A stretch of DNA of 38,220 nucleotides from IMG/VR virus record IMGVR_UViG_3300038701_002518, positions 1-38,220 of that record; one strand, 5' to 3'. A program made the position numbers and the translations under genes. Shown one piece after another: positions 12,973 through 34,396 of the stretch. This stretch comes from a virus. Below the pieces are notes generated by a model, which worked only from the letters and a program-made list of their open reading frames with translations, was not told the origin of the DNA and ran no database searches. Each line of letters starts with the position of its first letter. The stretch's first letter is position 1.

Positions 12973-13710
12973 TTATGCTGTCAGTTTTTCAAACCCGGCC
13001 TTTGCCTTGGCAAATAGTGCTGACTTATCGTCTTTAAGATCAAAGTCAATATCATGTTTATTCATCCAGTCAGCCATTACTTCCATTGTCCATTTCCACT
13101 CAGGTTTCTTTACCTCACCTTCTGGCGCGTTGACCGTCTCCCCTTGGGGGGAGTGACCATCGGTCGAGGGGGGTAACTCTTTATTGACTACCTCCTGAAC
13201 CTCTGGTTCTGTTACTTCAGTATTCTCATCCTTTGGCGCGCTGACAGTCTCCCCTTGAGGGGAGTGACCATCGGGCGAAGGGAGTAACTCTTCATTGACT
13301 ACCTCCTGAACCTCTGACTCTTTGGTATCAGGCTTTCCATCTACAGTCAGAGTAGTCACAGTACCATTAGCCTTAGCCTCTATGGCTTCACTTGCCTTAG
13401 CTGCTTTTACTTTTTCCCACTCCTCCTGTACCTGCTCTTCAGATAGGCCGCTAACTTTAGAGAGCAGTTCAATTCCATTCACGCCCTTACTGGCCTCAGA
13501 ATCCTGCCCTTCGGAGGAGGGGAGTAACGGCCTCTCAATCTCAAACCATTCACTTTTGATTGCCCTGGCATGAGAGATCGCATCGCTCTTTTTCTGATCA
13601 GTAAAAAACTGGCCATCAGGAGTAGCGTAAAACGTATCAACATCTTTGAAACTATCGAAGTAGTCACGAGACATCTCAATCAATTCTTCTTTGGTCTTAA
13701 TTTTCGCCAT
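12973..13710 (-). CDS. Conserved phage protein with repeat-expanded linker
   Basis: About 245 aa; MMAKIK at 13713 allows either of two adjacent ATGs. The N-terminal part (AKIKTKEELIEMSRDYFDSF, then YATPDGQFF and AISHARA) is a small Bacteroidota phage module found between head and tail genes. The C-terminal 40 residues (WTMEVMADWMNKHDIDFD, then KSALFAKAKAGFEKL) resemble a HeH/LEM-like helix-extension-helix. The middle is acidic and low-complexity. It has been built by three palindromic elements, two of them within a 37-codon tandem duplication. Role unknown; a head-tail joining or DNA-contact protein is possible. Confidence 0.6.
   Translation of the reverse strand: MAKIKTKEELIEMSRDYFDSFKDVDTFYATPDGQFFTDQKKSDAISHARAIKSEWFEIERPLLPSSEGQDSEASKGVNGIELLSKVSGLSEEQVQEEWEKVKAAKASEAIEAKANGTVTTLTVDGKPDTKESEVQEVVNEELLPSPDGHSPQGETVSAPKDENTEVTEPEVQEVVNKELPPSTDGHSPQGETVNAPEGEVKKPEWKWTMEVMADWMNKHDIDFDLKDDKSALFAKAKAGFEKLTA
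13137..13180 (+). repeat. Palindromic element, copy 2 (in frame)
   Basis: Reads GTCTCCCCTTGGGGGGAGTG, then a second stem ending GAGGGGGGTAAC. It lies inside the 245-aa gene, which translates it on the minus strand as ELPPSTDGHSPQGET without breaking the frame. Confidence 0.8.
13246..13290 (+). repeat. Palindromic element, copy 3 (in frame, tandem duplicate)
   Basis: The same element, translated as ELLPSPDGHSPQGET. Together with copy 2 it lies in a tandem duplication of 37 codons per unit that also repeats EVQEVVN upstream. The two units differ at several bases, so the duplication is not recent. Confidence 0.8.
13505..13528 (+). repeat. Palindromic element, copy 4 (partial)
   Basis: A half element, TGCCCTTCGGAGGAGGGGAG followed by TAAC, corresponds to the 3' half of the other copies. 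It is translated in frame as LLPSSEGQ within the same 245-aa gene. Confidence 0.55.
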
Positions 13711-19569: not shown

Positions 19570-20763
19570 ATGAACTCCATACAGAAATTAGCTATCAAGG
19601 CTTTACCTAAAAAGATGCAGGCGCAAATCGCCTTAAAACAAGTTACCCCACCTAGCAAATCGCTCACCGATCGCAAGCGGGTCAGCCATCAGTTAGAAAC
19701 TGATTTCAAATTTCGCTTTGAGATGGGACTCAACGCACTCAGGCAAGCAGAGGATTTGGCACGCGACCCTGAATTCCCTTCTCGCTATCATCTACTTCAG
19801 ATATACGATCGCATCATGAACGACTGTCACCTGTGGAGCCAGGCCGAAAACATGGACGACAAAGTATCAGGCTCACCATATACGGTCATTGATGAGAACA
19901 AAAAACCAGACGATCACCGTGCAGATCTATTCGAGCGAAATTGGTTTGAAGACTACTGCCGTCTCTTTTGCAGCGAGGAGTTATATGGCACTACCCTTAT
20001 TGAGTTTCAGGAGTTCATCAAATCATCAAACAAGCTTGTAGAATGGGAAGTTGGCGATGTTGAATTATTCCCTCGCGAGAATGTAGTTCCAGAAAAGGGC
20101 TGGATTGTCCTCAGCCCACAGGGCTATGTGAAGGGAATCCCTTATCGCGAAGAGCCTTGGAACACTTATCTCATTGAAGTAGGTAAGAAAAACAATCTGG
20201 GCAAGTTATTAAAAGCATGCCCGGAGGTGATTATCAAAAATTTCAGCCGCACAGACTGGAGTCAACACTCAGAAAAATACGGTAAACCAATGCTCAAAAT
20301 TGGCACTGAAACTACAGACACAGAAGAGCTAAACAAACTTGAGACTAACGCTAAAAACCTCGGCTCTAACGGCTATTGGATTGGCGACAAAGGTGATGAA
20401 GCCAGCCTTATGTCAGATTCTGGCAGAGGTGAGCCTCACAAAATCTATCTGGAAAACATCATGTATTCAGATACATCCAATTCCAAGTTAGTCACAGGCC
20501 AGCGTGGTGTAAGTGATGAGCAGGCATTTGTAGGCAGCACAGAAGCAGGCGAGCGAATGCTCAACGAAAGAGTCGAGGCCCGTATGAGACGTTTCCAACG
20601 CCATGTCAACGCTGTATTAATCCCTAAGCTTATCGAATTCGGTTACCCTCTGGAAGGCTACAAGTTCACTTTCCTTGCTTTCATGGACGAAAAGAAGGAG
20701 AAGAACAAAGGCGATCAAGAACCTAATGACGACAATCCCGGAGGTGATAGCGAGGGAAAGTAG
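19570..20763 (+). CDS. Portal protein (DUF935, Mu gp29-like)
   Basis: A 397-aa dodecameric vertex subunit. Family marks include LETDFKFRFEMGLNAL, IYDRIMNDCHLWSQ, the aromatic GTTLIEFQEF core, and VVPEKGWIVLSP. GEAGERMLNERVEARMRRFQ-like text near the end is the helix bordering the tunnel. Shorter than Mu gp29 (512 aa) but similar to other Bacteroidota DUF935 proteins. The reading frame stops with GGA AAG TAG. This is a slippery heptamer followed by a hairpin, so a fraction of ribosomes may continue into the MuF frame. The acidic, Asn/Gly-rich C-terminus is probably a flexible linker. Confidence 0.85.
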   Translation: MNSIQKLAIKALPKKMQAQIALKQVTPPSKSLTDRKRVSHQLETDFKFRFEMGLNALRQAEDLARDPEFPSRYHLLQIYDRIMNDCHLWSQAENMDDKVSGSPYTVIDENKKPDDHRADLFERNWFEDYCRLFCSEELYGTTLIEFQEFIKSSNKLVEWEVGDVELFPRENVVPEKGWIVLSPQGYVKGIPYREEPWNTYLIEVGKKNNLGKLLKACPEVIIKNFSRTDWSQHSEKYGKPMLKIGTETTDTEELNKLETNAKNLGSNGYWIGDKGDEASLMSDSGRGEPHKIYLENIMYSDTSNSKLVTGQRGVSDEQAFVGSTEAGERMLNERVEARMRRFQRHVNAVLIPKLIEFGYPLEGYKFTFLAFMDEKKEKNKGDQEPNDDNPGGDSEGK

Positions 20764-20782: not shown

Positions 20783-22175
20783 ATCACCATTCACCAAAAC
20801 AATCATCGCTTATTACACCAGCAACTGCACCCACACGCACGAACAATCTCCCCCTAAGAGGGGGAGTGGCGAAGCCGAGGGGGTAGAAGCCAAACAAAAA
20901 GATCTTTTCCCCTGGGAGCAGTTCATAAAAAGAGCCGCCAGGCGCATCTATGACCGTAAACTTGTAGGCGGTCAAATAGATCTTTCCACATGGGAGCAAA
21001 CAGCCCTATCACTCTGGAAAGGGACAAAATCAGGCTTTGGCCCTGTAGAATTCGGCACAGACAACCATGCTTTGCTACTACAATTCAAGTACAACATACA
21101 TGTATTTGCAGCCTTCAAAAATCATCAAAACATAGGAGCTATCGCTGATGCCCTCATTGATGACAAAGGAAAGATCAAGTCTTATCGTCAGTTCGAAAGA
21201 GAAGCTCTGGCCATAAGTAAAAACTACAACCGCAATTGGCTGCGCACAGAATACAACATTGCAGTTCGCAGAGCGCGCACAGCTCACAACCTGAACAAAG
21301 CCCTGGACAATACCGATCTCTATCCCAATTGGGAATACATCAAAAGCAAAGCAGCCGATCCACGCGAAGAGCACAAGAAATACTATGGCAAGGTGTTTTC
21401 GCTTCTCACCACAGTGGGCAAATCGGTTATACCACCCAATGGAGAAAATTGCCAATGTGGTTGGAGGCCCACAAACAAGGCTGTCACGGATGAAAACCCA
21501 GATACAAGCATTATCAAAGATCAGTTCTTGGAAGACCCTACTGATACGGGAAGAGTATTCAGTGATTTGCATCCATACTTCAATGTGCAAGAAGACTTTC
21601 AAAAGTGGTCTACCAAAAACTGGAACATCGATTTACCCGCAAGCCCTGATAAAATCACCAATATTTTCAAGGTTTGGAAGCGTGTCAGCAAATCAGACAG
21701 TTACACCATCGAGCACAAAAACAAAGACACAGGCGGTTTTGTAGCAGCTCACAAAAAACATGGTAAAGCCGAACTAACAGAGAACATCAAAGTAGCCAAA
21801 ACTCTCGCTGATAGAAATTCCGATGCTGTCATTCTCCAACCAATCAAGCACGATGCAAAAAGCGCAGACGCTATTGTCAGTGGCCAGGTAACGGAGTTCA
21901 AAGCAATTGGCCCCACTGCCAAGCTCAGCAACACAATCAACAGGCACATGGCCAAAGCCCGAGCACAGGGGGCCGAACAATTAGTAATCACATTGCCTGC
22001 CAAAGTTAACTTCAAAAACCTATCGAAGGGCATTCGAAGAGCCTTTGAAAATGACAGCCAAGGCAAAATCAAGACAATCATTTTCATCTACAAACAAAAG
22101 CTAGTGAGCATCACAAGAGCCTCTTGGCTCAAAAACAGTGTAGACCATTGGATACAAAAAAAGCTGAAAGACTAG
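20760..22175 (+). CDS. MuF minor head protein with nuclease-like C-terminus
   Basis: The frame is open from 20751 to 22175 but has no ATG, GTG or TTG before TTG 21072. Starting there would cut off conserved-looking sequence (LFPWEQFIKRAARRIYD and LWKGTKSGFGPVEFG). It is therefore annotated as the -1 frameshift extension of the portal (471 extra residues; about 868 aa in total). The MuF/gp30 domain covers KNHQNIGAIADALID to PPNGENCQCGW, the last being the conserved metal-binding end. The C-terminal part (about 21650-22170) contains YTIEHKNKDTGGFVAAHKK and SADAIVSGQVTEFKAIG, a D-x8-E-x-K set as in CdiA-CT tRNases. It may be a delivered toxin. Confidence 0.7.
   Translation, partial: VEGSTDGASPFTKTIIAYYTSNCTHTHEQSPPKRGSGEAEGVEAKQKDLFPWEQFIKRAARRIYDRKLVGGQIDLSTWEQTALSLWKGTKSGFGPVEFGTDNHALLLQFKYNIHVFAAFKNHQNIGAIADALIDDKGKIKSYRQFEREALAISKNYNRNWLRTEYNIAVRRARTAHNLNKALDNTDLYPNWEYIKSKAADPREEHKKYYGKVFSLLTTVGKSVIPPNGENCQCGWRPTNKAVTDENPDTSIIKDQFLEDPTDTGRVFSDLHPYFNVQEDFQKWSTKNWNIDLPASPDKITNIFKVWKRVSKSDSYTIEHKNKDTGGFVAAHKKHGKAELTENIKVAKTLADRNSDAVILQPIKHDAKSADAIVSGQVTEFKAIGPTAKLSNTINRHMAKARAQGAEQLVITLPAKVNFKNLSKGIRRAFENDSQGKIKTIIFIYKQKLVSITRASWLKNSVDHWIQKKLKD
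20847..20888 (+). repeat. Palindromic element, copy 5 (in the MuF N-terminal frame)
   Basis: CTCCCCCTAAGAGGGGGAG, then TGGCGAAGCCGAGGGGG. It is read in the plus direction here and keeps the MuF frame open as QSPPKRGSGEAEGVE. It lies in the linker between portal and MuF core, where an insertion would be tolerated. Confidence 0.75.
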
Positions 22176-25742: not shown

Positions 25743-25787
25743 CATATGTACACCAAAGTATTTAACTAACCTCCTGTGCGCTGGCCT

Positions 25788-25830
25788 GTCTCCCCCTCGG
25801 GGGAGTGCCCTCAGGGCGAGGGGGGTAACT
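25788..25830 (+). repeat. Palindromic element, copy 6
   Basis: GTCTCCCCCTCGGGGGAGTG, then a GCCCT / AGGGC stem and GAGGGGGGTAAC. It provides the last residues ELPPSP and the stop codon of the secreted protein on the minus strand. Confidence 0.8.
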
Positions 25831-27580: not shown

Positions 27581-28034
27581 TTCTAAATTCAAATAATATC
27601 TCTTGAATGTTCTTTTTGATCTGAAGTAGGCCCACTTGCTTTTGAATAAACTCACTCAGAAGACTCCAATTATCAAACATATACTGCCATCCTTCCAGAG
27701 CAAGCAGCTCATCACCGTTCACCTTCTCCTGTTTCATCAGGTAGTCCACTGTTTCCTTCAGAGCACGACCATTAGCCGCGTTCATATGAGCCGGAGCACC
27801 CAGCTTTTTTCGGCAAAACTGATCATACGCCCCAACAAACTCCTGATATCGTTCCAGCTTGATCACCTTCTTACGGGTAGGCTGTCCTCCCTTGGGGGAG
27901 GTGCCGCAGGCGGAGGGGGTTACCTGCACTTCCACCAACGTCTCCCTAATAGCCCCTAAAGCCTCCCGTTCCACATCACTATTAGCAAAGCCAAGTAACT
28001 CATCCACAAACGCTATTTGCTGATCAATCCTCAT
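27504..28034 (-). CDS. Hypothetical early protein with element-derived insert
   Basis: A 176-aa protein. The N-terminal helix (DQQIAFVDELLGFANSD) is followed by a palindromic-element peptide TPSACGTSPKGGQPT around residues 39-53. The main domain has KLERYQEFVGAYDQFCRKKLGAPAHMNAANGRALKETVDYL, a pattern frequent in early genes of Bacteroidota phages next to the preceding family. Its ATG overlaps the upstream gene by 11 nt. Function unknown. Confidence 0.55.
   Translation of the reverse strand: MRIDQQIAFVDELLGFANSDVEREALGAIRETLVEVQVTPSACGTSPKGGQPTRKKVIKLERYQEFVGAYDQFCRKKLGAPAHMNAANGRALKETVDYLMKQEKVNGDELLALEGWQYMFDNWSLLSEFIQKQVGLLQIKKNIQEILFEFRNASKSAKRRHSENEWDQLNSSLKGE
27881..27923 (+). repeat. 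Palindromic element, copy 7 (in frame)
   Basis: GCTGTCCTCCCTTGGGGGAG, then GTGCCGCAGGCGGAGGGGGTTACC. Lies inside the 176-aa gene, where it joins the N-terminal helix to the main domain without frameshift. Confidence 0.8.
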
Positions 28035-28854: not shown

Positions 28855-28894
28855 TCTCCCCCTTAAAGAGGGAGTGGCGAAGCCGAGGGGGTTA
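28855..28894 (+). repeat. Palindromic element, copy 8
   Basis: TCTCCCCCTTAAAGAGGGAG, then TGGCGAAGCCGAGGGGGTTA. Intergenic. It flanks the tRNA-like sequence on one side, in the same orientation as copy 9. Confidence 0.8.
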
Positions 28895-28903
28895 GGGGTA
28901 TTG

Positions 28904-29038
28904 TGATCCGAGCAGGATTCGAACCTGCATTGCCAGCGTAGCAATCTCATACGAGTCGCTATGTTCTGAGTGCGTCTACCAAGAGCTTGTAATGACCGAA
29001 ATCCATCGGTTTAACTTTACTCATTCCGCCACCGGATC
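28904..29038 (-). tRNA. tRNA-Leu-like sequence with two insertions
   Basis: The acceptor arms GATCCGG (29038-29032) and TCGGATC (28911-28905) pair, with discriminator A at 28904. The T-arm GCAGG-TTCGAAT-CCTGC is perfect. A long variable arm TTGC-7-GCAA and the D-arm words GTGGCGGAAT and TGGTAGACGC are those of bacterial tRNA-Leu. The D-loop is split by about 41 nt (28983-29023) that forms its own hairpin ACCGA / TCGGT. The anticodon arm is about 9 nt too long, with CTCA / TGAG flanking a 17-nt loop. No CCA is encoded. By ordinary rules this is not a working elongator tRNA. It may be a remnant or a tRNA mimic. Confidence 0.6.
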
Positions 29039-29060
29039 ATTTCAAAGTTTCGCACCCCAA

Positions 29061-29103: not shown

Positions 29104-29147
29104 AAAAACGACCTATCTCTTTCGTCTAAAAAGATAGGATTGTTCCG

Positions 29148-29185
29148 CTGGCAGTATTGCTCTGCATCACGCCTACACGTGCAGC
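29148..29185. repeat. 38-nt direct repeat, copy A
   Basis: Begins CTGGCAGTATTGCTCTGCAT and ends CACGTGCAGC. Identical to copy B (30603-30640) except for two bases. Intergenic, 13 nt after the stop of the gene at 29199 (minus strand). Confidence 0.8.
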
Positions 29186-29198
29186 GAAATCCTTCACT

Positions 29199-29579: not shown

Positions 29580-30027
29580 CGTTACCTCCTTCCTCTTTAG
29601 TTCCCACATGGTGAAAAACCTCCAAAACAAGGCTTTCCTTAACCTCGGGCACAGAGAAGGTCACGAGCAGATTATTCATTTGGTCATGAACCCTTTCATA
29701 AGCTTCTTGCACATTATGAGCATGGATCAGCATCAGATTCACCTCCTTCTTTTCCCTGCCTGAATCAGCATCAGATATCATATAGACCAGTTTGCACTGA
29801 TAAAACACATCGCTATCATCATACTCAAACACATCTGTAATCCGAGATTTGGTAATTGCCTTTACCTGAAATGAACCCATCACACGAGCCTTCATCTCTT
29901 CGTGAATTTTTGCCTCGGCCTCAGTAAAAGAAAGAGCATCCATCAAATACTCCTCTGTCACATTTCTGGCTCTTCCTTGCTCATCCTCTTTCGAATAAGC
30001 AACCTTTGCTTTATACCATGTTTTCAT
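29572..30027 (-). CDS. DUF4494 protein
   Basis: A 151-aa protein. The start TWYKAKVAYSKEDEQG, then VTEEYLMDALSFTEAEAKIHEEM, followed by a duplicated-looking second half (CKLVYMISDADSGREKKEVNLMLIHAHNVQEAYERV) is the DUF4494 signature. Both halves run beta strands then a helix with EA or ERV. Widespread in Bacteroidota phages next to Gam; function unknown. ATGA-type overlap with the Gam gene. Confidence 0.75.
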   Translation of the reverse strand: MKTWYKAKVAYSKEDEQGRARNVTEEYLMDALSFTEAEAKIHEEMKARVMGSFQVKAITKSRITDVFEYDDSDVFYQCKLVYMISDADSGREKKEVNLMLIHAHNVQEAYERVHDQMNNLLVTFSVPEVKESLVLEVFHHVGTKEEGGNGE

Positions 30028-30563
30028 ACCAACTCCTCCTCTTTCAAATCCACATAAAACTGTTCAGCCTGCACTATAATGACACCAGCCTTTTGCAGTC
30101 TTTCCAGCACTTTAGAGTCCTCACGTTTCCCAAGCACAGCATTCTTATCCAGGCTCACAGTTCGCTTCAGGTATGAGTTCATTCTCATATCTACCAGCTT
30201 CTGTACAGCATCCTTCTGTGTAACACCCTTGATAGTACTTACACTCGGGTTATCTGTCCTGAACCCAATCACCCCATTAATCAAGTCCTTCGATTTCTTC
30301 TTGGAAAACTCAGTCTCCTGATTAGCCAGGGCAAACGCTTGCAGCTTTTCAAAATCTTCCTGAATCTGAGTTCTTAGCGGTTCAGCTTGGGCATCAAACT
30401 GCTTATTAATCGCCTCGATCTGATCAGTCAACTTCTGTGCTTCCTGCTCTTTTTCCCCGTTCAGCACCTTCACTTTGCTCTGGTTTGTGGCATACCGCTT
30501 CATTATCGGTACTAAGTCATCTTTACTAGGTGCCACAATCACCTTCTTTTTAGCTCTCGCCAT
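30024..30563 (-). CDS. gam: Mu Gam-like DNA-end protecting protein
   Basis: A 179-aa protein that should bind double-strand DNA ends as a Ku-like dimer and block host exonucleases. The family plan is visible: a basic start (ARAKKKVIVAPSKDD), a long antiparallel coiled coil (about 25-80, VLNGEKEQEAQKLTDQIEAINKQFDAQAEPL), a beta unit ending GVIGFRTDNPSV, and the C-terminal SLDKNAVLGKREDSKVLERLQKAGVIIVQAEQFYVDL, typical of Gam. Length equals Mu Gam (174 aa). Confidence 0.85.
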   Translation of the reverse strand: MARAKKKVIVAPSKDDLVPIMKRYATNQSKVKVLNGEKEQEAQKLTDQIEAINKQFDAQAEPLRTQIQEDFEKLQAFALANQETEFSKKKSKDLINGVIGFRTDNPSVSTIKGVTQKDAVQKLVDMRMNSYLKRTVSLDKNAVLGKREDSKVLERLQKAGVIIVQAEQFYVDLKEEELV

Positions 30564-30602
30564 CGTTGTTATTGTTTAGTGTTAAAAAAGAATTTTGCTT
30601 GA

Positions 30603-30640
30603 CTGGCAGTATTGCTCTGCATCACGTCTGCACGTGCAGC
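30603..30640. repeat. 38-nt direct repeat, copy B
   Basis: The second copy of the repeat at 29148. It contains the perfect palindrome CTGCACGTGCAG, whereas copy A has one mismatch. It lies in the 90-nt gap between Gam and the next gene. Confidence 0.8.
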
Positions 30641-30653
30641 CAACCGTAGTCAT

Positions 30654-31055: not shown

Positions 31056-31566
31056 AACTCACCTCCTTAACTCCTCCGAGATGTCCGTCTGATCTTGGAA
31101 ATTCTGGTTGAGCAGTGCCAGTCTCCCCCTTGGGGGAGTGCCCAACGGGCGAGGGGGGTATGGCGGAGGGGGTTAAGTTCCTCACCCTCTCCATTTCAGC
31201 ATGTCTGATGGTAATAGCATTCACTTTACCCTTCGTAGGAATCCAGGCAGTACCATCATTATTAAGCCATTCCAAGCTCACTTCCTTCCCATACATACCC
31301 GCCAACTCAGAAGGAGTCGTAAGACCTTTTTTAGCAGGCATCGTATGCACAGGCTCAAAGAGGTTCGACTGATTCACAGCCGAATTATCCATATTTATCA
31401 TATTGATAAGCCCTAAAAGCTGTTTCTCAGCTTTCTTCATTTCCCTCAGGCTTATCTGTGGTAGGCTCTGATTTTTCCTGCCTCTGAAGTAGTCATACTG
31501 CATATCCAGCACCCTTTTCACTTCCACAGAAAAAGCATGTAGCTCAGTCCTTGCAGGATTACTCAT
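31048..31566 (-). CDS. Hypothetical early protein with element-derived tail
   Basis: A 172-aa protein from ATG 31566, an 8-nt overlap with the ATPase gene. A longer frame to 31638 has no support. Helical N-terminal part, then MYGKEVSLEWLNNDGTAWIPTKGKVNAITIRHAE, a small beta domain with Trp. The last 40 residues, beginning IPPSPVGHSPKGETGTAQ, come from a palindromic element and following sequence. Function unknown. Confidence 0.55.
   Translation of the reverse strand: MSNPARTELHAFSVEVKRVLDMQYDYFRGRKNQSLPQISLREMKKAEKQLLGLINMINMDNSAVNQSNLFEPVHTMPAKKGLTTPSELAGMYGKEVSLEWLNNDGTAWIPTKGKVNAITIRHAEMERVRNLTPSAIPPSPVGHSPKGETGTAQPEFPRSDGHLGGVKEVSYE
31121..31175 (+). repeat. Palindromic element, copy 10 (in frame)
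   Basis: GTCTCCCCCTTGGGGGAGTG, then CCCAACGGGCGAGGGGGGTA, with an extra GGCGGAGGGGGTTA end repeated. In frame within the preceding gene (PPSPVGHSPKGET). Confidence 0.8.
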
Positions 31567-32269
31567 GATCACCTCCTTCCTTGCCTTGCGCACTGGCTGT
31601 CTCCCCTTTGGGGGATTGCCCAACGGGCGAGGCTTCAAAAAGCGTCCCTTTCAAAGGGTCAACCTTCGGTATCTCCTTACTCATATCCCTCACCACAAAG
31701 TCACAGCCAGCACCAAACCTAGAAGCTCGGCACTTAGCCACAAAGTCCTCCAATCGTATTTTGATATCACACAAATGCATGATTGGCTTATTCTTCACCT
31801 TATCAGCGAGGTAGGCTACGAGTATGAAGTTCTTGTTTGGAAACTCCTCAAACAGTTCTTGCACCTGTTTAGCAGAAAGAGGAAAAAAGCTGATCGAGTC
31901 GATGATCACAAACCTGCCACTATTCTGCCTCCTAAGCTGTTCCTTAAGTTTCTCAAAGTTCTGGAGACCCCTATAGATAAATTTACCCCCTGGTATCTCT
32001 TCAAACTTGTTTCGAATTGCGCTGATCTGTATCCCTTTGTGCTTTTTCTGCTCGCAGTTATTCAGAAACACCTTCTTATTCAGAAATATGCAAATCACCT
32101 TAGCCAACATCATCAGGTATTCAGTTTTACCATGCCCTCCATCACCGTCCACATACATAGAAAAGTTCTGTGGCACATCTCCAAGGTGATCAAGCCACTC
32201 CTTAGGCAAGTCCTGATCTTTAAATGACCATGACATAATGGCACTCACGCCATATCCTTTTTCAGACAT
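31559..32269 (-). CDS. P-loop ATPase, RecA-like
   Basis: A 236-aa protein from ATG 32269 (MSEKGYGVSAIMSW). Walker A is GDGGHGKTEYLM near residues 43-54. Walker B is GRFVIIDSISF near 115-125, with a sensor-like NFILVAYL following. This is the core order of a small RecA/KaiC-type ATPase without extra domains. The C-terminal 30 residues are provided by a palindromic element (EASPVGQSPKGETASAQ). In this early position a role in DNA replication or recombination is inferred. The family name is not recognised. Confidence 0.65.
   Translation of the reverse strand: MSEKGYGVSAIMSWSFKDQDLPKEWLDHLGDVPQNFSMYVDGDGGHGKTEYLMMLAKVICIFLNKKVFLNNCEQKKHKGIQISAIRNKFEEIPGGKFIYRGLQNFEKLKEQLRRQNSGRFVIIDSISFFPLSAKQVQELFEEFPNKNFILVAYLADKVKNKPIMHLCDIKIRLEDFVAKCRASRFGAGCDFVVRDMSKEIPKVDPLKGTLFEASPVGQSPKGETASAQGKEGGDHE
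31599..31633 (+). repeat. Palindromic element, copy 11 (in frame)
   Basis: GTCTCCCCTTTGGGGGATTG, then CCCAACGGGCGAGGC. It forms the C-terminus of the P-loop ATPase in the same reading frame as copies 2, 3 and 10. Confidence 0.8.
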
Positions 32270-33120: not shown

Positions 33121-33425
33121 CACCATCCTGCGCCTCCTTCCTCATTGTCCAAAAAGTACTCCTCACAAATACCACTGAACATATCAAGCTCACTTTTATC
33201 ATTCTCCCCAAGGCACTGAGGGCATTGAGGCAGATCAACCGAATTCAAGCAGTTATCCATCGAGTGCTGTACTATACCATCCGCCTCTGTTTTGGTAAAA
33301 CCCACATAGTCGTTATGAATATCACATGAGGCCTCACACATACTTCTGTCTGGGAAAACCACCTTATTAGGCAAACTCTGTGGATTGACATACCCCTTGG
33401 CTATAATTTTCACTCCCTTAATCAT
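33120..33425 (-). CDS. Cys-rich hypothetical early protein
   Basis: A 101-aa protein with six Cys and several His: CEASCDIHN, NCLN and CPQCLG. The CPQC pair and upstream Cys/His could form a zinc site. ATGA overlap with the B gene. Family unknown. Confidence 0.5.
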   Translation of the reverse strand: MIKGVKIIAKGYVNPQSLPNKVVFPDRSMCEASCDIHNDYVGFTKTEADGIVQHSMDNCLNSVDLPQCPQCLGENDKSELDMFSGICEEYFLDNEEGGAGW

Positions 33426-34396
33426 AGCACCTGCTCTATTAGCTCCAGACTCAACTCATGTTCACCTTCCTCTATCTCTCTCAGCAACTTCTCAATGCTA
33501 CCAGAGAGCTCACCCACATTATCCACTTTGTGAGATATCAGTTTCACACAATCTTTTTGTTGTATCCCCATAGCCGCACACATATCCTTCACTTCCTGCT
33601 CATTCTGATCGAATAGTTCCACAAACCCAACTCCCTCTTTAATGCGCCTTTTCAATTGGAAGAATGGCGTTTTCTCCTTCGCAGCCTCCTTTTCAATATG
33701 CCTTTTCAAATCAGGCGTTCCCACAAGTATCACAGGGCAATGTCCTTTAACCGCGTCCATGATTGCTTTGAGACTCCCAAAAACAGCATCCTTTTTTTTA
33801 GCATTCTCACACTCATCCACGATCAGCGCAGGGCTCTTTTCATTCAGCAGTTTCTTCTCAATGGCTTTTCTCATCCTATAAGCACTACCAATAGCCTTCA
33901 CATTAAGTACTTCACATAGCTCATGCAGAAAGGCATTCTTAGTCATATCGCTATCCATATTGATGCGATAAGTCCCCTCAGGTCTCATTCTCAAAAAGTT
34001 GTCAATAGAGTAGCTTTTCCCACTTCCGGTATTACCCACAATGCAAACAGGCTTACCCGACACAAGCGCATCATCAAAGGCATTCATACAGGCATTGTAG
34101 TTGGTGAGGTCAAAGTGTCTCCAGTACACTCTCTCAATACTGAAATCAACTGCCTTTGCCAGTCTTTTGAAGTAAAGGTCTTTAACCGCTACAGTCGTAT
34201 TTCCAGCTTTCATGGCATCCCAGTTGCCATTCATCATGGCGCTCATGTATGCTTTAGAGATGTCCGCTAAATCCGCTAGTTTTGAATCACTGAGTCCATC
34301 CGGCTCAGTTACAGTTGCAAAGCGCATCTTGTACGCCCGTGCAGCTCTAATGATGGCCTCTTTTTGGCCCTCATCAAGTTTGGTTTCTGTGATCAT
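33422..34396 (-). CDS. Transposition target activator ATPase (MuB-like)
   Basis: A 324-aa protein. An N-terminal HTH (LADLADISKAYMSAMMNGNW) is followed by an AAA-type ATPase with Walker A GNTGSGKS (about 121-128), Walker B ALIVDECEN (about 200), and sensor-1-like PVILVGTPD. A helical lid follows, as in MuB. Such proteins bind target DNA as filaments, recruit the transposase and give target immunity. It lies downstream of the transposase, separated by 82 nt with a strong hairpin. Confidence 0.85.
   Translation of the reverse strand: MITETKLDEGQKEAIIRAARAYKMRFATVTEPDGLSDSKLADLADISKAYMSAMMNGNWDAMKAGNTTVAVKDLYFKRLAKAVDFSIERVYWRHFDLTNYNACMNAFDDALVSGKPVCIVGNTGSGKSYSIDNFLRMRPEGTYRINMDSDMTKNAFLHELCEVLNVKAIGSAYRMRKAIEKKLLNEKSPALIVDECENAKKKDAVFGSLKAIMDAVKGHCPVILVGTPDLKRHIEKEAAKEKTPFFQLKRRIKEGVGFVELFDQNEQEVKDMCAAMGIQQKDCVKLISHKVDNVGELSGSIEKLLREIEEGEHELSLELIEQVL

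Follow-up and report, generated by a model that had tools for sequence, protein, structure and literature searches.

Results

A tRNA-Leu-like RNA in the early region of a Mu-like phage

The window, by which we mean the whole 38,220-nucleotide stretch of DNA analysed herein (IMG/VR record IMGVR_UViG_3300038701_002518), is by its gene content a Mu-like (transposable) phage, with a Mu portal protein (positions 19570–20763), a Gam-like protein (30024–30563) and a MuB-like ATPase (33422–34396). The MuB-like protein is 20–28% identical to those of phages of Flavobacterium, Elizabethkingia and Porphyromonas, and the MuB relatives that we found were all distant. Single-protein searches of viral contigs retrieved no close relatives of the phage, no MuA-like protein was found at 1e-20 among 395 Bacteroidia genomes, and when the window DNA was compared with annotated phages and plasmids the matches were all short, most of them to parts of tRNAs. 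On the plus strand, positions 21072–22175 encode a Mu F-like head protein whose C-terminus carries a CdiA_C domain (contact-dependent inhibition toxin; Pfam PF18451, 3.3e-9), i.e., a toxin-like domain joined to a phage head protein.

The RNA element belongs to the early region and is encoded on the minus strand, running from 29038 (nt1) to 28904 (A73), and its 135 nt correspond to nt 1–73 of a tRNA, with C74 encoded and CCA not encoded. Read 5′ to 3′, it comprises the acceptor 5′ strand GATCCGG (29032–29038), T8 with the D-arm 5′ half TGGCGGAA including A14 and A15 (29024–29031), an inserted D-loop hairpin of 43 nt (28981–29023), the D-arm 3′ half GGTAGACGC including G18 and G19 (28972–28980), a hypervariable centre of 43 nt in place of the anticodon and variable arms (28929–28971), the T-arm GCAGG TTCGAAT CCTGC (28912–28928) and the acceptor 3′ strand TCGGATC (28905–28911). 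The acceptor pairs at 7/7 positions, the last pair being G-U, the D-stem is GCG/CGC and the T-stem pairs at 5/5 positions. This is the exact interval at which a first-pass annotation had proposed a tRNA-Leu-like gene, and the acceptor, Leu-type D-arm, T-arm and A73 bear that proposal out. The extra D-loop hairpin that it described is present as well, since A15 and G18-G19 are separated by 43 nt instead of the usual 1–3 (~40 extra), and these fold on themselves through a closing GAG/CTC stem and an inner ACCGA/TCGGT stem.

Two further elements of that description held in part, and both concern the centre, which can form a 4-bp CTCA/TGAG stem with a 17-nt loop followed by an ATTGCTA/TGGCAAT helix. 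An anticodon loop about 9 nt too long is obtained if a tRNA arm is assumed, with CTCA/TGAG as its stem; however, the canonical anticodon-stem positions 27–31/39–43 pair at only 1/5, and we therefore consider the arm to be absent rather than enlarged. Likewise, the “long variable arm” corresponds to the ATTGCTA/TGGCAAT helix, but the loop offers the 5′ strand of this helix an alternative partner (TAGCGA/TTGCTA, 6 bp), and that pairing would make a pseudoknot. ARAGORN called no tRNA in the window, and Rfam gave no gathering-score match there (tRNA model 14.9 bits against a cut-off of 29 bits), so that a known RNA family or ribozyme was rejected for the window. The fold energy of the RNA by itself is unremarkable (z −1.4), and the case for it is made by its tRNA anatomy and by its conservation in relatives rather than by fold energy.

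Upstream of nt1, AAACTTTG (29043–29050, minus strand) starts at −12 and has one mismatch to the Bacteroidota −7 element TAnnTTTG. Across the family, −12 is the top offset for the start of TAnnTTTG, found in 9 of 298 upstream regions and thus in a minority of members. Further upstream, a terminator-like hairpin with a T run (29112–29138, minus strand) may set off the preceding gene, a weak signal given that one such hairpin was found against 0.4 expected by shuffling. A 69-nt repeat (78% identical) occurs twice in the early region, each time in a gap between genes (29120–29188 and 30575–30643); one copy lies just upstream of the RNA, and the repeat is possibly a shared regulatory element. In addition, dispersed repeats of the type CTCCCCCTTGGGGGAGTG were observed at 13123–13280, 25775–25821, 27889–27922, 28855–28892, 31108–31154 and 31586–31632, some of them in frame within genes (as recurring PSPxGHSPKGET peptides) and others flanking the RNA.

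A large family of tRNA-like RNAs in phages

Relatives were sought in viral contigs with three pattern scans. The first scan (two D-arm halves, 26–56 nt apart) gave 34 loci, most of which have a matching acceptor and T-arm in the right places, and the same phages also hold versions that lack the D-loop insert but have long centres. The second (Leu D-arm, then 50–80 nt, then T-loop) and the third (T-arm plus 3′ acceptor, commonest type) gave at least 120 matches each. By these scans, relatives number in the hundreds and occur across many unrelated phages. The matches listed contained 158 unique RNAs, a few of which are ordinary tRNA-Leu genes, and a wider set, again among the matches listed, comprised 309 sequences in 246 core clusters. 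An AGTCAGG-type 5′ acceptor lay upstream in 200 of the 221 exact T-arm plus 3′ acceptor matches listed. The window RNA has all the features by which we define the family, namely a tRNA top half, a Leu-type D-arm, no anticodon arm and a centre of at least 40 nt. Some relatives do match the general tRNA model of Rfam, as expected given their tRNA-like ends.

Members are intergenic, with same-strand genes on both flanks in 94 of 147 cases and no overlap with a long reading frame in 133 of 147, and two or more of them were found at 90 of 246 loci; on one phage contig (L037), six RNAs with identical T-arm and 3′ acceptor lie inside 5 kb. Clustering of neighbouring genes revealed no conserved partner protein or gene. 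A distant Mu-like prophage (L192), whose MuB identity is only ~25%, also carries one of the RNAs; it lies in the early region, on the MuB strand and 5 kb beyond MuB in the downstream direction, at a gene junction that is not identical to that of the window. In cellular genomes the RNAs are rare: 18 matches were found in 84,980 species genomes, including Sphingobacterium, Chitinophaga, Epilithonimonas, Bacteroides, Paenibacillus, Dyella and several uncultured phyla, and only 2 of 395 Bacteroidia genomes, both previously known carriers, contained one. We did not find the family in Rfam or in the open-access literature searched, and a prior description elsewhere, in subscription papers or preprints, is possible. 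The RNAs thus form a large and apparently undescribed phage family in which the same tRNA-like shell encloses very different structured cores.

The ends are conserved as tRNA ends

Since the scan patterns (D-arm, T-loop) left the acceptor unconstrained, its pairing provides an independent test. All seven acceptor positions pair in 108 of 127 unique matches and at least six in 118, and among distinct acceptors 42 of 56 pair at 7/7, compared with mostly 3–4 when acceptors were recombined. Covariation was assessed on 42 rows, i.e., the window and 41 acceptors picked from the 56 distinct ones, a mildly selected set from which mostly ill-paired or redundant acceptors were omitted. In this alignment, 97.8% of cells are paired (73% shuffled), the covariation score is 0.674 (0.163 shuffled) and double changes are found at all seven pairs.

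The remaining parts of the shell are similarly constant. TGGCGGAA occurs in 150 of the 158 unique members listed, U8 in 127/127 and U48 in 168/172, as the U8-A14 and A15-U48 contacts of a tRNA elbow would lead one to expect. Nucleotide 73 is A in 157/188 members and G, T or C in 31/188. At the 3′ end, 169/188 members have C at nt74 and 8/188 encode CCA, similar to the ordinary tRNAs of the same loci (29/31 and 3/31, respectively); by this signature, the RNAs appear to enter the 3′ pathway that processes real tRNAs. The commonest acceptor, AGTCAGG, is present in 93 of the 158 unique members listed, and is also combined with unusual D-arms that ARAGORN calls Pro, Ile, Gln and others. Selection acts on these ends as it does on those of a tRNA.

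Hypervariable cores are structured and lack an anticodon arm

In place of the anticodon and variable arms, family members carry a core of 40–140 nt. Of 143 independent cores, 46 have a helix of at least 6 bp whose 3′ strand ends 2 nt before the T-stem (6.8 expected) and 32 have one that ends 3 nt before it (7.4 expected), while from 5 nt outward the counts were near expectation. The position of this anchored helix is the end point of the variable-arm stem in class II tRNA; the window RNA has 5 bp there, which belong to its 7-bp ATTGCTA/TGGCAAT hairpin. In most cores with an anchored helix the 5′ strand lies far upstream, often within another helix, which results in pseudoknots. Related cores show compensatory changes (L034:10787, ATGG/CCAT; L136:829, CGGG/CCCG), L040 and L118 form the same long-range helix from different sequences, and covariation of the pseudoknots is clear within subgroups. 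Across the family, a crossing (pseudoknot) partner was found 31 times against 28.6 by chance, hence we do not claim that all cores are pseudoknots; as a general rule for the core the pseudoknot was rejected, being seen in subgroups only.

The D-loop inserts are hairpins too, with a mean terminal stem of 6.3 bp in 25 unique inserts compared to 3.0 bp after shuffling. Because the insert can be present or absent beside identical or near-identical cores (L034/L107, L053/L020), we regard the D-loop hairpin as an optional module. Homologues sharing both insertions of the window RNA had been suggested as a search target; hundreds of relatives do share the long centre, but the D-loop hairpin comes and goes. 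A search for shared motifs in the cores gave only a weak enrichment of AGGTGG-like words, which names no target, and the longest match complementary to a member’s own locus, as antisense RNA would have, equals that in shuffled sequences.

At least four of five pairs at the anticodon-stem positions were found in 4.8% of the family versus 6.7% after shuffling; in the same set, those ordinary tRNA-Leu genes that could be recognised pair at 5/5. This means that, judged by their sequences, the family RNAs cannot decode. A reading frame for a peptide tag was also sought: stop codons are as frequent in the cores as in shuffled sequences, and a tmRNA-like tag RNA was rejected on that ground; the tmRNA covariance model of Rfam had no match in the window or in six family loci scanned.

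Leu-type and Ser-type scaffolds

Long centres were found with 145 of 159 Leu-type D-arms and 10 of 112 others, a comparison biased by the choice of loci with a Leu pattern. A scan with a tRNA-Ser D-arm, intended as a negative control, recovered RNAs of this kind built on Ser scaffolds instead: 14 of its 17 loci have an intact acceptor and a long variable core. These tRNA-Ser-type RNAs (L298–L314), with acceptor and T-arm intact and long variable cores, represent a second scaffold.

Discussion

The anatomy of the RNAs, the covariation of their ends, the core helices, the lack of an anticodon arm, the tRNA-like 3′ signature and the distribution in phages are established. How such an RNA would be transcribed, processed and kept stable, and what its core would do, we infer from these features. 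The reading that we favour, and to which we give about an even chance, is of a non-decoding phage RNA whose tRNA-type ends serve for excision and stabilisation and whose hypervariable core is the working part. The acceptor stem, T-arm and D/T elbow would act as a constant “end capsule” through which the RNA is made via the tRNA maturation route, with the 5′ end set by host RNase P or by a transcription start at nt1, the 3′ end set by the host 3′ pathway and the CCA enzyme, and the product shielded as a tRNA would be. This shell-around-core arrangement is favoured because RNase P, the 3′ enzymes and the CCA enzyme recognise the part that is constant and not the part that varies. The structured core, different from phage to phage, would take the place of the anticodon and variable arms, to which the D-loop may add a second hairpin, and would bind or sequester host factors, for example in counter-defence or host takeover. 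Binding or sequestering of host factors appears the most likely job since the cores are phage-specific and vary extremely, with a single phage often having several versions, and it is from this diversity, phage restriction and multiplicity that a role in counter-defence is possibly to be read. The “regulatory RNA with tRNA-like ends” offered by the first-pass annotation comes close to this picture. Against it, the searches for own-locus antisense, a conserved partner gene and a strong core motif gave no signal pointing to a target. Furthermore, if the ends were a capsule only, the dominance of Leu- and then Ser-type D-arms and the recurrence of AGTCAGG would need another reason, for which charging is an alternative.

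In our ranking, the cut-out-and-protect shell is followed by a charged RNA and then by an acceptor-side decoy. As a charged RNA, which we think possible but would not presume, the ends would be kept for aminoacylation by LeuRS (or SerRS), so that the RNA could serve in translation (tmRNA-like), engage EF-Tu, feed an aminoacyl-tRNA-dependent reaction or drain the synthetase. Leu and Ser tRNAs both belong to class II and are recognised by their synthetases without recourse to the anticodon, so that the anticodon arm would be replaceable and this reading stays alive. The overwhelmingly Leu-type scaffold (as counted in Leu-pattern loci), its Ser-type counterpart and the intact D-arm and elbow agree with it, and the prevalence of A73, the main LeuRS discriminator, suggests charging. 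Set against these are the members with another nucleotide at position 73, the AGTCAGG acceptors on non-Leu D-arms and the lack of a tag reading frame in the cores; a D-loop hairpin beside G18-G19 may moreover hinder LeuRS, and charging leaves the diversity of the cores unexplained. A further reading, in which a widespread and undescribed class of phage non-coding RNA is host-processed, has a possibly Leu/Ser-charged shell and inhibits host defence or functions through a diversified core, is put forward tentatively; if true, it would make these RNAs the counterpart, at the RNA level, of anti-defence protein islands.

It seems to us unlikely that the RNA is a decoy, with the core as filler, for some host toxin, nuclease or modification enzyme directed at the acceptor/T side of tRNAs. 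The ends mimic tRNA exactly and the RNAs are phage-specific and often multicopy, but filler would not retain anchored helices and covarying pairs, and attackers of the anticodon loop would find no target. The decoy for anticodon nucleases that had been suggested at first is accordingly weakened, since the relatives have no anticodon arm above chance; one for a synthetase or some other enzyme acting on the acceptor side is possible.

An intron-containing tRNA-Leu, which would become a normal tRNA once the D-loop hairpin and some of the centre had been removed, is very improbable and was rejected. Clean excision of the D-loop insert is possible on paper, but most relatives have neither a D-insert nor an anticodon arm to restore, Rfam gave no intron or ribozyme match, and if loop nucleotides of the window RNA are taken out, positions 31-39 are left as a G-A mismatch; to our knowledge, the archaeal tRNA splicing endonuclease is absent from bacteria and phages. 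A decaying tRNA-Leu pseudogene, which would be missed by ARAGORN and fall below the Rfam tRNA cut-off as the window RNA does, is scarcely credible and was likewise rejected, because every paired arm is intact, as the first-pass annotation had argued against random decay, and the relatives show paired acceptors with compensatory changes throughout the family instead of broken acceptor and T arms.

Relation to known systems

The likeness to tRNA-Leu (class II) extends over the acceptor, the D-arm (GGCGGAA..GGTAGACGC), the T-arm, A73, U8, U48 and the C74 context, whereas the family RNAs lack the anticodon arm and have a hypervariable core and an optional D-loop hairpin. With tmRNA (ssrA) they share tRNA-like ends, the lack of an anticodon arm and, in some members, pseudoknots at that place, but they are built on a Leu/Ser rather than an Ala scaffold, are much shorter, have a full D-stem and give no signal of a tag frame. 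The tRNA-like structures of plant RNA viruses are also a viral mimicry of tRNA ends; these are 3′ parts of genomic RNAs, unlike the separate RNAs of DNA phages. The man-made tRNA scaffold engineered for RNA production resembles the family in that its cargo RNA is set where the anticodon arm was. The nearest published case that we found in the open-access literature is the pseudo-tRNA tRNA-Other of Bacillus cereus, which is tRNA-like, does not work in translation and was proposed to play a regulatory-RNA part (PMC3399842). It is a lone chromosomal gene by a genomic island and in this differs from the phage RNAs, a whole family in which the shell is constant and the core variable.

Several hundred non-decoding tRNA lookalikes of phages have apparently been overlooked: tRNA finders either skip them or report them as tRNAs whose anticodons have no meaning. 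Counts of phage “tRNA” genes would accordingly have to be read differently. The family would provide a natural case of a tRNA that carries a cargo, and its hundreds of novel structured folds could be tried for roles in anti-defence or host takeover. As members are present in named bacterial strains, among them prophage copies in Sphingobacterium alimentarium DSM 22362 and Chitinophaga eiseniae DSM 22224 (loci L161 and L165), their expression and charging are open to direct test.

Further RNAs were observed in the contigs surveyed. An Rfam “freshwater-1” RNA (RF02979; L034:10301–10363) sits in a phage tRNA array together with several family RNAs, and another phage contig bearing a family RNA has a single isolated ARAGORN tmRNA call (L015:4189–4551). 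Finally, another tRNA-like type, with an anticodon-arm-like hairpin, an extension of ~80 nt and a common GACCACnA-type motif, was found at L047:12257–12431, L062:836–991, L094:3170–3319 and L134:7301–7450.
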